NCBI RefSeq assembly: GCF_004194535.1
Contig: NZ_CP025781.1
Coordinates: 2,666,001-2,730,000 of the forward strand
Length of the DNA: 64,000 nt
Source: Iodobacter fluviatilis
GTDB lineage: Bacteria > Pseudomonadota > Gammaproteobacteria > Burkholderiales > Chitinibacteraceae
Direction of reading: 5' to 3'
Notes under the pieces: model-generated
What the model was told of the DNA's origin: nothing
Database searches by the model: none
What the model saw: the letters and a program-made list of their open reading frames with translations, nothing else
Program-made: the position numbers and the translations under genes
In this document: positions 1-49,133 of the stretch, in pieces
Numbering within the stretch: position 1 is the stretch's first letter
How the letters are laid out: each line of letters opens with the position of its first letter

Positions 1-951
1 AGCCAGATGCTCAACGTAACCATCAAACGGGGTCGGCATCGGCATCATTTCTAAACGCTCTTGCTCCAACATCTCGGCAATGCTCAGACCTTTGAATTCG
101 GGATGCCTGAGCACGCCCCATAAGACGCGACAACGCTCGGCCAGCCACGCATTCAATGCGTCAAAGGTACTGAACTTGATGCTTTGCGCCTCCAGCCAGA
201 TTCGCCGCCGACTATCTTGGACATTCTTTTCAACCACGCCTTTTTCCCAGCCAGAGGCGACATTGCAAAAGTCGGGATCAAACAAATAATGGGCGCACAT
301 CACCGAGAATCGGGCATTCACGATCCGGCCTTTGCCTTTCAATACCTTATCAACAGCGGTCTTCATATTGTCGTAAATGCCTCGGCGCGGCACACCCCCT
401 AAAGCCGCAAAGGATCGAGTATGCGCATCGAACAACATTTCATGCCCTTGACTGGGATAGGCCACTAACCAGAAGGCGCGACTGGCACACAATTTCAGAT
501 GGGAAACTTGAATGCGCCGATAAATACCACCAATAAGTAGATGCTCCTCACTCCAATCAAATTGAAAGGCTTCGCCCAAAGCAAATTGCAAGGGCACAAA
601 ACCCTGTGGGGTCTTACCGGCTTTGCCCCGCCAAGCACGAACGAAATCAGTGACGCCACTGTAAGCCCCTGTATAACCCTCAGCTTGAATCTGCTCAAAC
701 AAGGCTTTGGCGGTGCGACGATTCTGCTTGGATCGGAAGGAGTCGGCAGTCAGGGCTTGTTCTAGAGTGGCATGATAGGGCGTCAGTTTGCCAGGCTTAC
801 GCTGCCGTACGTATTGCGGCTCAGCCTTGGCAGCGGGTTTGCGAACCCAAGCGCGAATAGTGTTACGCGCCAGCCCCGTGCGCTTGGTGATTTCGTGCAG
901 CGACAGATTATCGCGAAAATACATCCTGCGGATTTTGCCCATCATTTCCAT
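1..951 (-). CDS. istA: IS21-family transposase IstA, 5' part, runs off the window
   Basis: The complement reads open for 317 codons from an ATG at 951 to the left edge with no stop. The N-terminus is a helix-turn-helix (about residues 15-45, including LARNTIRAWVRK). The catalytic triad of the IS21 rve-type domain is visible: first Asp in FQFDWSEEH, second Asp in RGIYDNMKTAVDK, Glu in [12 protein letters not shown]. IstA binds the element ends and cuts and joins DNA with its ATPase partner IstB, which would lie outside the window to the left. Unlike the second IS21 copy in this window, this frame is intact, so the copy may still be functional. It is transcribed leftward. The family call is firm; completeness cannot be judged. 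Confidence 0.93.
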   Translation of the reverse strand, partial: MEMMGKIRRMYFRDNLSLHEITKRTGLARNTIRAWVRKPAAKAEPQYVRQRKPGKLTPYHATLEQALTADSFRSKQNRRTAKALFEQIQAEGYTGAYSGVTDFVRAWRGKAGKTPQGFVPLQFALGEAFQFDWSEEHLLIGGIYRRIQVSHLKLCASRAFWLVAYPSQGHEMLFDAHTRSFAALGGVPRRGIYDNMKTAVDKVLKGKGRIVNARFSVMCAHYLFDPDFCNVASGWEKGVVEKNVQDSRRRIWLEAQSIKFSTFDALNAWLAERCRVLWGVLRHPEFKGLSIAEMLEQERLEMMPMPTPFDGYVEHLA

Positions 952-1060
952 GGTGATCACCTTTTATCCTCTGCTCAAGAGTTAAGCAGAATAAGTAAAG
1001 CACCTGGGTCAATTTTGGATCGGCAGAACTAGCTGTGGTGGGTCAGTTTTCGGTCGGCGT
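952..1060 (-). mobile_element. IS21 terminus with two internal end repeats
   Basis: Upstream of the leftward istA are two related direct motifs on the + strand, GGGTCAATTTTGGATCGGC near 1009 and GGGTCAGTTTTCGGTCGGC near 1042. Repeated motifs of this kind are typical of IS21-family ends, where IstA binds. The outer boundary is inferred to lie near 1060, where the sequence changes abruptly into the 5' end of a second istA copy. No target duplication can be shown because the other end is outside the window. Confidence 0.6.
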
Positions 1061-1069
1061 CAACACACC

Positions 1070-1168
1070 ATGGAAATGATGGAAATCACCACGCGCACAG
1101 GGCTGGCGCGTAACACCATTCGCGCTTGGGTTCGCAAACTCGCTGCCAAGGCTGAGTCGCAATACCGA
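1070..1168 (+). pseudogene. istA: 5' remnant of a second istA copy
   Basis: Starts ATGGAAATGATG as in the leftward istA and continues EITTRTGLARNTIRAWVRK, so it is the same gene in the opposite orientation. About 17 residues are deleted after the first four, and similarity ends near codon 32, close to the end of an inserted IS3 element. The rest of this copy reappears at 4851-5464 beyond the IS3 and MITE insertions. It cannot encode a functional transposase. Confidence 0.8.
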
Positions 1169-1202
1169 GGGCTGCGTCAATCACGGACACCACGCTTTGG
1201 GT

Positions 1203-1638
1203 TTATTCCTGATTTGCTAGCTCAAATTGCTTGGCAAATACTGCTGGCTCTTCATCGTTCAAACGTGAATGACGGCGAATTCGGTTGTAAAAAATTTCAA
1301 TATATTCGGTGATTTCCTCCTGCGCTTCCACTCGTGTTTTGTAGCTACGGTGATGAACCAATTCATTCTTCAATGAGCCCACTTTCCATTGGCGCATTGT
1401 CATAGCAGTTCCCTTTGCGTGACATAGACCCCCGCAAGCCCGCCAATGCCACTTGCCTGGCTCCCTCGATCCGAATGTAAAATCAATCCTTCCTTAGGTC
1501 GCTTTTGCGCCAAGGCCAGCTTCAATGAGGCACTCACCAACTCTTTTGTCATTCGACTACCCATCGCATAACCGACGATTTCACAAGTAAACACATCCTT
1601 GATTCCAGCCAAATAAAGCCAGCCTTCTGTGGTCGGAA
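1203..1638 (-). pseudogene. IS3 transposase orfB, 3' exon, degenerate
   Basis: This is the C-terminal half of an rve-type DDE transposase. It opens with PTTEGWLYLAGIKDVFTCE, holds the second catalytic Asp in LILHSDRGSQ, and ends with FYNRIRRHSRLN. Relative to the family, several residues are missing just after HSDRGSQ, and a small deletion at ATGGAAAGT-GGCTCATT throws the remainder (GSLKNELVHHR onward) into another frame. The first codon is completed across the intron by the last base of the 5' exon at 3919. Because of the indels, even a spliced message would not give a full transposase. Confidence 0.85.
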
Positions 1639-1639
1639 G

Positions 1640-1689
1640 TGGAGTAAGAGACGGGGCGTAGTCGTACTATTTCCCCGTCTCTCCTCTCC
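1640..1689 (-). ncRNA. Group II intron domain VI with branch-point adenosine
   Basis: On the minus strand, AGAGACGGGG pairs perfectly with CCCCGTCTCT around a loop, and a basal GGAG/CTCC stem leaves an unpaired TA. The adenosine at 1645 is seven nucleotides from the 3' end counting the last base, the canonical distance for the branch point used in lariat splicing. Confidence 0.78.
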
Positions 1690-1723
1690 GAACCGGACTT
1701 GCACCTTTCAATGCATCCGGCTC
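1690..1723 (-). ncRNA. Group II intron domain V (catalytic hairpin)
   Basis: A 34-nt hairpin on the minus strand begins GAGCCGGATGCATTGAAAGG and ends AAGTCCGGTTC. Length, the GAAA-type loop and the GAGCCG/CGGTTC base match the strongly conserved domain V of bacterial group II introns. It lies between the maturase stop codon and domain VI, as expected. Confidence 0.9.
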
Positions 1724-1884
1724 TTCATCTAAGTGCTGCTCATCGCAAAGGCAACCTCACCATACCTCGACTCCATGGTGCTGATCGGCTCGTCGTGCAA
1801 TATGAATGGATTTTCAGTCAAGGTTCGCCATTTGAACCGACTCTTCCGGCTTGTAATCAGCCGCCGGAGTGTGAGGGCTCCATA

Positions 1885-3255
1885 CTAGCCATGAGTGTTT
1901 TGCCCTCCAATCAACCAAGTTTTAGCGACACCGTTTGCTGGCGATTTAACATAATCTCGCATGAGCGATCTAAAGCCGCGTCGGTATTTACGCGCCAGCC
2001 AATAGCCAAACTTCCAGAAGATGGCGCGATCTAACTTGCTGAATAAAGTGGCAGTAAAGTCGGTGTATTGGTGAAAGTTTGCCCACCCAGTGAGGTGTCG
2101 GTTAAGACTCGCCAGCATATCCATTCGATTCGTGCTGTAATTACTCGACAGTTGCTTTACCAACTTCTCGGTAAAGCGCCGATATTTATCCCATGGAATT
2201 GTACTCACCACCCGCATCTGACCGCGCGCGCCACGCTTACGAATGATTCGATGCCCCAGAAACACAAAGCCATCGTTAACATGCGGAATGTGGGTTTTCT
2301 CAAGATTCAGCGTCAATTTAAGCTGATCTTCAAGAAATGCTCGGCAGTCTGCGCGCGCAGTTTCAGCTTGCGCTTTGCTGCCTTTGACAATCACAACAAA
2401 ATCATCAGCATATCGACAATAAGATATTGCCGGTTTCCACTGGCGCTGCTCCCGTACCGCAATGGGCGCTGGTTTTGTATGCCAAAGTTCCATGCCCAAC
2501 GATCTTTACGTACTTTCTTGTTAAGGTATTTCGCTTCCATCCAAGTATCAAACTCATGCAGCATGATGTTTGATAACAAAGGTGAAATAACCCCACCTTG
2601 CGGTACGCCTTCACTTGCCGCCCGAAATAAACCGCGATCTACACAGCCCGCTTTGATGAACTTCCATAGCCAGTAAACGCGGGTCTGCGATACGCTTGCG
2701 CATTGCTTTAAGCAGTAATCGATGGTGAATGGTATCGAAGTAGCTGGCCAGATTGCCTTCAATAATCCAGCGCCCAGCTGTGCTTTGTTCTCCCCCATCC
2801 TGTAGCTGTAATTTCACCGTGCGAATGGCGTGATGTACGCTGCGCGCTTTTCTGAATCCGTATGAAACGGTATGGAAATCACTTTCCCATATCGGCTCCA
2901 TCACCATCAAAATGGCACGCTGTACAATCCGATCACGCAGGCAAGGGATGCCCAAAGGCCTCATCTTGCCATTGCTTTTTGGAATTTACACACGACGGGC
3001 GGCTTGTGGCTGAAACGTGCCAGCAAGTAGCTCGGTGCGTAAGGTTTCAAGTTCATGCTGGAGATGATTTTCCATATAAACCCGAGTGACACCATCGATT
3101 CCCGGTGTCTTTGCTCCACTTGACGCCAGCGTAGTGTGAGCAGCTTCGCGTAGCCAGACCGGTTCAGCAATGAGCCTCAGCAGACGATCGAACTTGCGTT
3201 CTTTATCCTTTGAAGACCATATTGCCAGCTTGCTTTGCATTTCACTGATTATCAA
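1885..3255 (-). pseudogene. ltrA: Group II intron reverse transcriptase/maturase, broken
   Basis: This intron-encoded protein should reverse-transcribe and help splice the intron. Visible RT blocks are KTPGIDGVTR, the RPLGIPCLRDRIVQRA block, EGVPQGGVISPLLSN and the catalytic CRYADDFVV, followed by a maturase-like region with HRIIRKRG and a basic C-terminus. No endonuclease domain is evident. It is disabled in three places. An in-frame TAA at 2986-2988 stands where the family has Tyr (ARRV-stop-IPKSNGK). Two frameshifts lie near 2680 (after RIADPR) and near 2490 (before PIAVRE). The start is taken at 3255. Confidence 0.9.
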
Positions 3256-3918
3256 AGGTCTTCACCTTATTGTGGTCAGTTAGTCGACCCAGCAAACCAC
3301 TTAAACTGCCTCCCTTCGCCATGTAACTGGCTTTCCCAGTTTCGGACTACTACGGAGGCTCCGCCAACTCGCACATCATCGGGGGCACACTCCCTTGGCA
3401 TTTGTGCAAGCCTTCCCCAGTTCACATGCTGGACTCAACGCATGGGTGAGGTTGCCTATCGCAGTCTTTATCCTTGCTTTCCGCAAGTCGATTTAGATGC
3501 CATGGTCTAGCTACACACTCCCCATGACTCCATACAGACCAGTCTACATTTCTGGCTACAATCGCGGCATCAGTGGATATATGTCACTGATACCAATCCA
3601 AATCCAGCCTGTTAAACGGTGTAGGCCGTGGTGACATTTCAATCCTCAGATGCGGTTTAATAGGTACGTGTTCCTCAACCGTCCCATGCTCAGCCTAGAG
3701 GTTCATCTTGGCGTAACCGCTTCGCCGCAAACCCCGTTTCCCACGGACTTCGTCACCCTGCCAGTGTCAGCAGGTCACCGCCGCTTCGGCTCACTTCCCC
3801 TTGTAGCAGAAGAAGGGCATTCCCCAGCGCAACATCAACGACTTGCTGGGATACTGCATTCCAAACATGCTCAAGCAGCATCACCCCAATCAATGCAGGC
3901 TACGCTGGCTGGGCGTAC

Positions 3919-4335
3919 TGTAACTAATATCGCTCACCCACATTTCATTCGGCTTGACCGGTTCGAAACATTGCCCGAGTAAATTCTCTTTCACTGGCAA
4001 GCTATGATTTGAATGGGTCGTCGCCTTGAATTTCTTCGCTTGAATGCAGCGCAAACCCAGTCTGCGCCTCAAATAGCGCAATTGACTCAAGCCAATTTGT
4101 ACCTCATCAGCCGCAAGCTCTTTCTGTAAACGTCGTGGCCCATAAGTCATTCTGCCGTGCGCATGTGCTGCACGTATTTTGACTTCCAGCAGCAGGCGAT
4201 GCGCCTGCTTTGGTGCTGATTTGGACTGTAGCCAGTTATAAAATCCGCTGCGCGACAGGCCAAGCCATTGTGCCATTTGTGAAATCGGATACTGCTTTCT
4301 TTGCTGTTTCATGAACGCGTACTTAGCGTGAATTC
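3919..4335 (-). pseudogene. IS3 transposase orfB, 5' exon
   Basis: This is the N-terminal half of the IS3 transposase: KYAFMKQQRKQYPISQMAQW, then an HTH_21-like region (AHAHGRMTYGPRRLQKEL), ending at the first catalytic Asp in EMWVSDISY. The last base (A at 3919) begins the Ile codon finished by the 3' exon. Without splicing, translation runs into the intron and stops at 3890. It is entered from orfA by a probable -1 frameshift near 4357-4363. The residues seen in this half look intact. Confidence 0.85.
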
Positions 4336-4602
4336 CTTGGCAAAGTACGTGGCGGCCTTTTTTAAAAAAGCGCACTCCATTTTGCTTTCGGCCAGTTCTC
4401 GTTTGAGCCTGGCGACCTCGGCGCTGAGCTCGTCGACAGGCTGAACGCGATGTTGATCCAGGCCCGCTAGCTTGCCTTGCTGTGCCAATTTGACCCACTT
4501 ATCCAGCGTCTGTTTGGGCATCGCTTGCGGCACATTCAAGTGTTGTTCGAGTACTAATTTAACGGCTTCTGCACGAAATGCAGTGGTGTAACTACTGGCC
4601 AT
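4309..4602 (-). CDS. IS3-family transposase orfA (helix-turn-helix subunit)
   Basis: A 97-residue protein beginning MASSYTTAFRAEAVKLVLEQ. It has a helix-turn-helix, then LDKWVKLAQQGKLAGLD and a leucine-rich coiled segment (ELSAEVARLKRELAESKMEC) typical of IS3 OrfA. Related proteins carry a few more residues between the first helix and MPKQTLDKW, so a small in-frame deletion is likely. A GGAGG ribosome-binding site precedes the ATG at 4602. It overlaps orfB and probably also yields an OrfAB fusion by frameshifting. Confidence in family is high, in function low. Confidence 0.82.
   Translation of the reverse strand: MASSYTTAFRAEAVKLVLEQHLNVPQAMPKQTLDKWVKLAQQGKLAGLDQHRVQPVDELSAEVARLKRELAESKMECAFLKKAATYFAKEFTLSTRS
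4357..4363 (-). promoter_or_regulatory. Probable -1 ribosomal frameshift site (A6G) of the IS3 element
   Basis: On the minus strand the codons TTA AAA AAG in orfA contain the heptamer A-AAA-AAG. Slipping back one base turns FLKKAATYF into LKKGRHVLCQG, which leads straight into the orfB frame (KYAFMKQQ). A6G motifs are the usual slippery sites for OrfAB fusion in the IS3 family. Confidence 0.7.
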
Positions 4603-4669
4603 GACTTACCTCCAGAGAAGATTTTATCTCAATTGAAGGTGTCCATAATTAGCAGCCTACCTCAGAGTT

Positions 4670-4853
4670 CCATGAGCGATTTTTAACTTTCGTTCCGCCC
4701 CAAAAATGGGCTAAACCCGAAGGGCTGAGCCGGAAAATGGCCATTCACTGCGTTATGCTCCTCGACAATAACCCGTTATTGCCTTCGTCACATGCCTTGT
4801 GCCTGGCCGTTTTCCGGCTCAGCGCAGTGGTGAATGAAACGCCAACAGGCCCT
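4670..4853 (+). mobile_element. MITE (CTAG-target family), left-truncated copy
   Basis: It matches the complete copy at 48700-48967 from CCATGAGCGATTTTTAACTT to the right terminal repeat GAATGAAACGCCAACAGGCC. About 85 bp at the left end are missing. The right end joins CTAG at 4852-4855 and then istA sequence (GAACAAGC), where the intact istA copy has CTCTAGAACAAGC. So the element landed in a CTAG of this istA. There is no coding capacity. Confidence 0.85.
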
Positions 4854-5464
4854 AGAACAAGCTCTGACTGCCGACTCCTTTCGCGCTAAGCAGAATCGTC
4901 GACCGCCAAAGCCTTGTTCGAGCAAATTCAAGCTGAGGGTTATACAGGGGCTTACAGTGGCGTCACTGATTTCGTTCGTGCTTGGTGTGGCAAAGCCGGT
5001 AAGACCCCACACAGGGTTTTGTGCCCTTGCAATTTGCTTTGGGCGAAGTCTTTCAATTTGATTGGAGTGAGGAGCATTTGCTTATCGGTGGTATTTATCG
5101 GCGTATTCAAGTTTCCCATCTGAAATGGTGTGCCAGTCGCGCCTTCTGGTGAGTGGCCTATCCCAGCCAAGGGCATGAAATGTTGTTCGATGCGCACACC
5201 CGTTCCTTTGCGGTTTTAGGGGGTGTGCCGCGCCGGGGCATTTACGACAATATGAAAACCGCTGGTGATAAGGTATTGAAAGGCAAAGGCCGGATCGTGA
5301 ATGCCCGATTCTCGGTGATGTGCGCCCATTATTTTTTTGATCCCTACTTCTGCAATGTCGCCTCTGGCTGGGAAAAGGGCGTGGTTGAAAAGAATGTACA
5401 AGATAGTCGGCGGCGAATCTGGTTGGAGGCGCAAAGTATCAAGTTCAGCAGCTTTGATGCATTT
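4851..5464 (+). pseudogene. istA: Second istA copy, 3' portion, broken
   Basis: It is clearly homologous to the leftward istA, from LEQALTADSF through RGIYDNMKTAGDKV and [19 protein letters not shown]. Inactivating changes include a 1-bp deletion in CGTCG-ACCGCC near 4900, two extra bases in CCCACACAGGG near 5010, and TTA to TGA just before VAYPSQG near 5148. It then fuses to istB sequence near 5464, losing the last third of IstA and the start of IstB. Confidence 0.88.
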
Positions 5465-6045
5465 ATTGCAAGCAGAACACAGCGATAGTAAGGTGCGCTC
5501 GATTCAGCATCAAATGAGCGCAGCGAAGTTCCCCGTGCATCGAGATTTAGCGGGATTCGACTTTAGTGCGAGCAAGGTAGATCAAGCACTGGTCAGTCAA
5601 CTGGCGACATTGGCCTTTACCGACACGGCACAAAATACCGTACTGATTGGTGGTCCGGGCACGGGCAAAACGCATTTGGCTACGGCGCTAGCGATCGGCG
5701 GGATCACGCATCACGGCAAGCGCGCCCGTTTTTATTCGACCGTGGATTTGGTCAATTTATTGGAAAAAGAAAAACGTGAAGGCAAAGCAGGCCGTATTGC
5801 ACTTGCTCTTATGCGAGTGGATGTGGTGATTTTGGATGAACTGGGCTACTTACCCTTTAGTCAGGCAGGAGGCGCATTGCTGTTTCATTTGTTGTCGAAG
5901 CTCTATGAGCACACCAGCGTGATCATCACCACGAATCTGAACTTCTCGGAATGGTCGAGTGTATTTGGCGATGCCAAGATGACCACGGCGTTGTTGGATC
6001 GGCTGACGCACCATTGCCACATTGTGGAAACGGGGAATGACTCAG
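5465..6045 (+). pseudogene. istB: IS21-family helper ATPase IstB, truncated at both ends
   Basis: An AAA+ ATPase with Walker [10 protein letters not shown], Walker [13 protein letters not shown] and sensor segment [12 protein letters not shown]. IstB delivers IstA to target DNA. The first 60 or so residues are missing: the frame opens inside [17 protein letters not shown] after fusion with istA. The C-terminus ends at VETGNDS, where ISAs1 sequence takes over. The ATPase core reads without interruption but has no proper start, so it is probably inactive. Confidence 0.88.
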
Positions 6046-6401
6046 CGCGAACTCAAGGGCAAGGGGACGACCAGACCACGATAGAAACGCGATATTTTAT
6101 CCGCAGTATGAATGCCACCGACCCGAAATGACTTGGGCAAGTAGTGCGTGCGCACTGGGGCGTTGAAAACCAATTGCACTGGGTATTGGATATGGCATTT
6201 GATGAAGATTCGCTGCGCTATCGAGAGGGAAATAGTGCGGCCAATATGTCGATTATTCGGGATTCGGGGCTAAATTTGGTTAGTGCTGAGAAAACTGCCA
6301 AGGTTGGCGTCAAAATCAAATGCCTAAAAGCGGGCTGGAATGACGATGATTTGCTGCTAGTTGTGACTGGCCAAGCGCCTGTTGGTGAAGGAAAAACTTA
6401 G
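6046..6401 (+). pseudogene. ISAs1-family transposase, C-terminal remnant
   Basis: The translated fragment [14 protein letters not shown], then (after a TGA at 6129-6131) VRAHWGVENQLHWVLDMAFD, SLRYREGNSAANM and KCLKAGWNDDDLL, is the conserved C-terminal region of ISAs1-type (H-repeat) DDE transposases. The catalytic N-terminal two thirds are absent and an in-frame stop interrupts the fragment. It is fused directly to the 3' side of truncated istB, a deletion junction. Confidence 0.85.
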
Positions 6402-6439
6402 GAACTTGTTTTACCAGTCAATTTAAATGCGATTGCCCT

Positions 6440-6706
6440 AGGGTCTGTTGACGTTTCATTCACAATTATGCTGAGCCGGGAAACGGCCAAGCACAAGGCA
6501 TGCGACGAAGGCAATAACGAGTTATTTCCGAGGAGTATAATGCAGTGAATGGCCGTTTTCCGGCCCAGCCCTTCGGTTTGGCTACATTTTTGCGGCTGCA
6601 CGGCGTTAAAAGACGCTCATGGTACCCGTACCACCTCACGTCTTTTACCTTGTTCAGCCGCAAAACTGCAACTAACATCGCCGCGAATGAAACGTCAACA
6701 GACCCT
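6440..6706 (-). mobile_element. MITE (CTAG-target family), complete copy
   Basis: A 267-bp non-coding element with perfect 22-bp terminal inverted repeats (GGGTCTGTTGACGTTTC inward), flanked by CTAG at 6438-6441 and 6705-6708. Its interior is related to the 4670 and 48700 copies but in inverse orientation, and is rich in inverted repeats around GGCCGTTTTCCGG. A TA or CTAG target is typical of IS630/Tc1 and some IS5-group transposases, which may have mobilised it. Confidence 0.9.
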
Positions 6707-48699: not shown

Positions 48700-48967
48700 A
48701 GGTTCTGTTGACGTTTCATTCACGGCTGCGTTTGGCCCCGATTTGGGGCTGAACAAGGAGAAAATGGCGACATGGTACGAGCACCATGAGCGATTTTTAA
48801 CTTTCGTTCAGCCCCAAAAAGGGGCTAAACCCGAAGGGCTGAGCCGGAAAATGGCCATTCACTGCGTGATGCTCCTCGACAATAACCCGTTATTGCCTTC
48901 GTCACATGCTTTGTGCCAGGTCGTTTTCCGGCTCAGCGCAATGGCGAATAAAACGTCAACAGACCCT
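48700..48967 (+). mobile_element. MITE (CTAG-target family), complete copy
   Basis: 268 bp with terminal repeats AGGTTCTGTTGACGTTTCAT (48700-) and GAATAAAACGTCAACAGACC (48946-), flanked by CCTAG and CTAG. Internally it contains nested inverted repeats (CAGCCCC/GGGGCTG, GCCGGAAAA/TTTTCCGGC). An ORF drawn across it (48641-49180) has no family resemblance and is treated as spurious. Confidence 0.9.
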
Positions 48968-49133
48968 AGCGGGCTGTCGGACTTAAGACTGATCGACTAC
49001 GGAAAAGCCGGATTTTGCCATATTTCACGCATTTTCTCGTTGAATAGCCAGCTATTCGCCTCAAAAGCCCGCGAAATCTGTCTCAAACCGGTCTTTCCCT
49101 CGCTACGATCGTTTAAGTTCGACAGGCTGCTAG
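48966..49133 (+). mobile_element. Second, unrelated MITE-like element sharing the CTAG
   Basis: 168 bp bounded by CTAGCGGGCTGTCGGACTTA and its inverted partner TTAAGTTCGACAGGCTGCTA, matching at 18 of 21 positions. The left CTAG is the same four bases that end the preceding MITE. The interior (GCCAGCTATTCGCCTCAAAA and neighbours) encodes nothing obvious. Confidence 0.72.

Follow-up and report, generated by a model that had tools for sequence, protein, structure and literature searches.

The DNA analysed here, called the window, is a stretch of 64,000 nucleotides (nt) from Iodobacter fluviatilis (contig NZ_CP025781.1, positions 2,666,001 to 2,730,000); positions given without a locus name refer to it. 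On its minus strand lies an IS3-family insertion sequence (IS) whose transposase gene, orfB, is interrupted by a group II intron (Table 1). The Rfam model RF00029 matches 1725..1639 on the minus strand with 58.8 bits (cut-off 40), and the end of the match coincides with the 3′ end of the intron at 1639. The intron terminates in ..CAC which, together with domains V and VI, is the AY-type terminus of group II introns, and position 1645, the seventh base from this end, is consistent with domain VI as a putative branch A. The 5′ start reads GTACG, compared with the GUGYG type; this variant is also found in the sister introns described below and in betaproteobacterial and Paenibacillus relatives, and a GTGCG start is found in alphaproteobacterial and some gammaproteobacterial relatives. 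Joining the exons gives WVSDISY-I-PTTEGWLYLAG, in which the Ile codon split by the intron lies four codons past the first catalytic Asp.

Of eight further genomes searched from this GTDB genus, three contain the intron at 82–95% identity, at locus L046 (genome G033), L047 (G035), and L048 and L052 (both G030). All four sister introns start with GTACGCCC and end with ..TTACTCTAC (..TTACTCCAC in the window) at the equivalent nucleotides in other transposases, that of L047 being clearly different, and directly follow D-I-T-Y plus one base. The joined flanks were searched against 43 genomes. Ten of 24 listed places showed, by coordinates, an unbroken run over the joint (L023, L024 and L038 were read base by base; the remaining seven are 69–71-nt matches), and the closest empty homologue among the places listed, L023, is 88% identical over the joint. 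Four further nominal crossers were left out, namely the two intron copies of the window's own genome, which extend 9 nt past the joint, and L025 and L034, where another intron lies just upstream. A strict class-wide junction pattern matched two places in one of 369 genomes and was too strict to be useful. At L033 (~1657, genome G031), a homologue resembles the 3′ exon from the joint onward and has unrelated DNA upstream.

As the RF00029 match ends at 1639, the four sisters have the same boundaries and empty homologues run across the joint, the intron ends are correct, and the sense orientation, domains V and VI and the in-frame joint are confirmed. The initial annotation, made from the letters alone, had described such a sense-orientation intron in an IS3 transposase gene: the covariance model places the 3′ end where it was claimed, and related genomes do hold homologues without the intron. 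The same three observations make it extremely improbable that the in-frame reading is due to chance and the true ends lie elsewhere, in favour of which nothing was found.

Table 1. Features of the intron and its host element in the window.
Feature	Position	Strand	Remarks
Group II intron	3918..1639	minus	2280 nt; 5′ GTACGCCC.. to 3′ ..TTACTCCAC; RF00029 end and boundaries common to four sister introns
Domains V and VI, presumed branch A 1645	1725..1639	minus	RF00029 match; branch point from its position only
Intron reverse transcriptase/maturase, broken	1885..3255	minus	Fragments match Pfam RVT_1, GIIM; 512-codon stop-to-stop frames in sisters
IBS1 (intron-binding site 1) GTTACA, exon −1..−6	3919..3924	minus	By position and loop pairings
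IBS2 candidate GATATT, exon −8..−13	3926..3931	minus	6/6 pairing with intron 281–286
EBS1 (exon-binding site 1) candidate, first hairpin loop, intron 338–343	3576..3581	minus	Covaries with exon −1..−6; 4/6 paired in window
Second hairpin loop TGTAGA, intron 371–376	3543..3548	minus	IBS1 complement 5/6 in window; mean 4.90
EBS2 candidate AATGTC, intron 281–286	3633..3638	minus	Mean 5.17/6 paired, 30 introns
IS3-family element including intron	1166..4664	minus	~1219 bp without intron; ends as read by us
orfA of IS	4309..4602	minus	Pfam HTH_Tnp_1
orfB 5′ exon, to ..WVSDISY and first base of split codon	3919..4312	minus	Pfam HTH_21 on open reading frame 3890–4498
orfB 3′ exon, part still open in joined frame (PTTEGWLYLAG.. 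to HSDRGSQ..)	1400..1638	minus	Pfam rve

Pfam matches to HTH_Tnp_1, HTH_21, rve and fragments of rve_2 characterise the host element as IS3-type orfA/orfB with an rve DDE core. Its left end was set by the break in homology and by L029, and its right end by L020:4456-4662, an internal-deletion derivative of this IS in the same genome in which the 5′ 141 nt are joined to the 3′ end. Inverted repeats were found for the window IS and a target duplication was not. The intron-encoded protein (IEP), a domain IV reverse transcriptase/maturase, is present in the window in four pieces. Three of them match RVT_1, one with a score under the family cut-off, and one also matches GIIM; the N-terminal fragment has no Pfam match. 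The 512-codon IEP frame is open in L046, L047, L048 and L052; the sister IEP scores 337 bits with TIGR04416 (cut-off 300), and Pfam found RVT_1 and GIIM in it and no endonuclease domain.

In the surroundings, IS21-type sequences flank the IS3 element in opposite orientation (window 1–1112 on the minus strand and 4835–6131 on the plus strand). Pfam named only IstB among them, the other part being presumably istA. A repeat with ..GGCACAAGGCATGTGACGAAGGCAATAACGGGTTATT.., which by eye resembles a miniature inverted-repeat transposable element or the end of a small IS, occurs at ~4690–4830, at 6430–6560 and near 48700–49000.

The lineage at one transposase codon

A scan of a contig collection with the sister IEPs returned 152 relatives. 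The analysis covered the best 80 of them, so that distant members are under-sampled; related copies are not independent. Both intron ends could be placed in 64 of the 80, and 16 lacked one end. In 54 of these 64, the motif D-[IFVLM]-[TS]-[YFW] directly precedes the split codon; this count includes the G033 and G035 sisters again (L064 and L065), as well as L087 and L134, with one base of 3′ exon, and L133, with 13 bases of 5′ exon. Six of the ten that depart from the strict motif are inserted at the same codon with the motif changed (L072, L074, L078, L088, L095, L111), and in the other four (L071, L103, L142, L143) the 5′ end is unreliable. Three further loci in named records, from E. coli S1, an E. 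coli plasmid and a Paraburkholderia plasmid, are all at the motif as well. Going by the titles of the records, alpha-, beta- and gammaproteobacteria, Nitrospira and Paenibacillus are among the hosts. Among ten 3′ exons chosen for spread, nine matched Pfam rve and L073 gave no match. Among 49 loci with a stop on either side (46 relatives, the window and two G030 copies; L114 and seven loci cut off by a contig end were left out), 30 keep the host frame open over at least 80 codons ahead of the split and at least 130 beyond it.

DNA resembling the reverse transcriptase gene of the E. coli relative L144 was detected in 2291 of 5426 E. coli genomes; the match covers at least 80% of the query in 1861 of these, and identity is 80–90% in most records. 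In one E. coli chromosome record the split transposase is annotated as incomplete pseudogenes, and annotation of this kind may hide live elements. Two intron relatives, L083 and L091 (~3325), lie in a transposase-like frame with the motif VDETY, and their 281–286 site reads ATCGTC accordingly; the region 3′ of domain V is near-identical in the two and unlike that of other relatives. A Pfam search with the VDETY exon found no family. L139 and L140 contain 5774-nt stretches that are identical in metagenome-assembled genomes named as two genera, pointing to transfer or a binning error.

A different intron uses the same motif. Genome G029 contains two full copies of it, 1836 nt long with RF01999 and RF00029 matches, and a 452-nt 5′ piece of it in a further IS variant. 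It is inserted 6 nt upstream of the window-type site (GACATCA^CYTATA^, where the carets mark the two sites). In G020 (L058:7380-7629), CCTATA comes directly after the 3′ end of this different intron, and next the initial ~148 nt of a window-type intron, which is cut short by other sequence; at both of its ends the contig terminates inside the different intron. With an exon of 6 nt between tandem introns, the upstream intron would have to splice first for the IBS1 of the other to be whole. The site preference of the different intron is drawn from G029 and G020; 13 relatives, 46–65% identical, have no confidently placed ends. Judging from the size of its IEP and the C-run at its 3′ splice site, the G029/G020 intron may be nearer to class D, the class of the intron RmInt1 discussed below.

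Exon-binding loops

How the intron reads its site was examined in 30 close introns. Mean pairing with exon −1..−6 is 4.37 for the first hairpin loop and 4.90 for the second. Of 20000 shuffles, the number that reached the observed covariation was 2 for the first loop, 715 for the second, 0 for the better of the two and 19 for the 281–286 site; without L078, L083 and L091 these counts became 0, 11988, 26 and 5628, none of which is to be read as a probability, because the rows are related. As the covariation of the first loop survives without these three outlier loci and that of the second vanishes, the first loop is likely the better EBS1, and the second, which shows no covariation once they are left out, was dropped. 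The 281–286 site is likely EBS2, with covariation that rests on the outlier sites. L078 (~3322), an insertion at DITE|F, speaks against the first loop and in favour of the second: of the six bases of its altered exon, the second loop pairs with all six (one wobble) and the first with two. In 35 introns of the GTGCG type, where the first-loop columns are off register, the second loop has the best score, without covariation (2328 of 5000 shuffles). The EBS1 that the initial annotation had tentatively placed at 3555–3560 was discarded; a second 6/6 match occurs within the first 640 nt, and the site itself lies on the 5′ flank of the hairpin beside the loop and is not conserved in the 30 introns.

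A G in the intron accepts both C and U in the exon. Opposite the third codon position at −11 a G is found in 30 of 30 introns, and opposite that at −2 in 24 of 30 (first loop) or 28 of 30 (second loop). Opposite the third position at −8 all 30 have an A, which leaves a C at that position unpaired, and the base opposite −5 varies. That the loops are tuned to codon degeneracy is thus borne out in part.

Movement of the intron and its host

Genome G030 holds two copies of the IS with the intron (L054:7125-10684 and L055:10381-6822). They lie in unrelated surroundings and have their inverted ends in common; each is bounded by a 3-bp target duplication, AAG in one and CAC in the other. Their exons are identical (0/774 and 0/500 differences) and the transposase exons are open. 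The NCBIfam IS3 model NF033516 matches them in register, at 78–225 and 227–368, leaving the split codon as 226; the 5′ exon alone scores 146.7, under the whole-protein cut-off of 160. A search of G030 with the 3′ exon found no other full copy, only one 101-nt fragment at 77%.

The window's own genome also has a second copy of the intron, 100% identical (C1:1413392-1415671). The block common to both copies (window 1113–4664, one mismatch in 3552) begins at the left end of the IS in each, as transposition of IS and intron would have it. However, the homology runs past the right end into an istA-like fragment in both and, beyond copy-specific insertions, both reach an rRNA operon at its 5S (3′) side. 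The spacer of one operon contains two tRNAs, and none was found in that of the other. This shared right flank means that the second copy came from duplication or recombination. A target duplication, looked for at both copies, was not found. Transposition is therefore a very improbable origin of this pair, and we rejected the two copies as proof of it.

We consider it probable, at roughly 85%, that an intron like the Escherichia intron E.c.I4 retrohomed into an IS3 transposase gene, could be spliced while intact and has since decayed in the window. Such an endonuclease-less group II intron would enter the gene by retrohoming, with loops of its RNA base-pairing to the codons at the first catalytic Asp, GAY-ATY-ACN-TAY-N. 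With its own reverse transcriptase/maturase, an intact intron would splice out of the transposase mRNA and rejoin the split codon; the IS would still make transposase and the intron would gain a dispersed, conserved target. In the window copy, the maturase and the transposase would both have broken later.

Several points weigh against this reading. Splicing in the cell, retrohoming in the lineage and transposition of IS and intron as a unit are inferred from DNA sequence. The reverse transcriptase of the window is interrupted by stops and frame changes, and its joined orfB frame stops 78 codons past the split codon, presumably before the last catalytic residue. As both genes are broken, joining the exons restores the frame only locally; the window copy could splice at best with a maturase from elsewhere, and a whole transposase would not be produced. 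The host frame is short on at least one side in 19 of the 49 loci, including the window, L064 and L065. The second copy in the window's genome, being a block duplication or recombination product, is no evidence of mobility, and no target duplication was found at the two G029 IS copies with the different intron. By analogy with RmInt1, where <1% of exons are ligated, splicing may restrain the IS rather than shield it. The two G030 introns are not identical: their alignment over 2286 nt has 64 columns with a difference, all of them between intron nt 323 and 1572, so later conversion or separate homing is needed and co-transposition is unproven. As the simplest account, these sequences suggest that IS and intron transposed together and that one intron was then patched by conversion; a gene-conversion patch of ~700 bp is reported for another intron in PMC3522654. 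Alternatively, the introns may have homed twice, independently, from mosaic donors.

Two claims of the initial annotation are affected. Its statement that splicing restores the transposase frame holds for the split Ile codon, which is rejoined in frame, and fails at the stop further on; moreover, exact restoration is the outcome of any sense-strand retrohoming and is thus no sign of adaptation. Its suggestion that the intron let the IS stay mobile cannot be demonstrated in the window, where both genes are broken, and finds support in G030.

The intron might instead be only a parasite that homes into an IS already in place, splices poorly, inactivates it and never moves with it, which we rate at somewhat below an even chance. 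The two G029 introns are 100% identical while their host IS exons differ at 55/767 and 26/511 positions, a mark of recent homing, RmInt1 splices poorly and has been proposed to limit its IS (PMC4238363), and the shortened transposase frames fit as well. What speaks against parasitism of this kind is that both exons are open in 30 of the 49 loci, and that the G030 pair combines target duplications and identical exons in a genome where no empty full copy was found.

If retrohoming into a spliceable position is the preferred reading for the window, an extension of it to a homing hub is doubtful. Here, the catalytic-Asp codons of DDE transposases would be targeted by an E.c.I4-like lineage from proteobacteria to Paenibacillus, perhaps including the VDETY type, with loops that have G opposite some third positions; an unrelated lineage would home 6 nt upstream, tandem introns being possible, and IS and intron would form one unit with a splicing-dependent transposase. 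We lowered its odds because the fit to codon degeneracy is only partial. The lineage-wide pattern is of more interest than the single copy in the window. It offers a natural set, with copies both open and decayed, sites without an intron and one motif used by two intron lineages, in which to ask whether such introns, by splicing, shield their hosts or restrain them. The pattern suggests that the introns spread across different IS elements perhaps since they bind codons that the transposase cannot easily change.

Comparison with known systems

No report of the catalytic-Asp codons as a common intron site, or of two lineages on them, was found in the open-licence literature, as far as its accessible text goes. 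Bacterial twintrons are known (PMC4424553 and PMC4649490). RmInt1, another group II intron, likewise interrupts a transposase gene; according to PMC4238363, its host ISRm2011-2 requires splicing of the intron, with <1% of exons ligated in vivo. RmInt1 differs in being a class D intron with an IS630-Tc1 host. IStrons differ in that their intron is a group I intron at the edge of the IS and removes the entire element from a host gene by splicing, whereas the window intron lies inside the transposase gene. In IStrons, self-splicing RNA and DNA transposon travel together (PMC4227781).

E.c.I4-type introns in IS3-like transposases have already been published (PMC3522654), and the E.c.I4 IEP belongs to class A, among those without an endonuclease, according to PMC3552965. 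Like E.c.I4 and S.f.I1 of Escherichia and Shigella, the window intron lies at a specific position of an IS3-like transposase, and its sisters' IEP is without an endonuclease domain. The E. coli relatives found here, which we do not equate with E.c.I4 itself, have IEPs at ~64% identity and lie after DITY in L144 and L169. The differences from E.c.I4 are an IEP divergence of ~36%, the Iodobacter-type betaproteobacterial host and the decay of the window copy. The closest known counterpart is the E.c.I4 type (class A), of which the window intron appears to be a decayed member.
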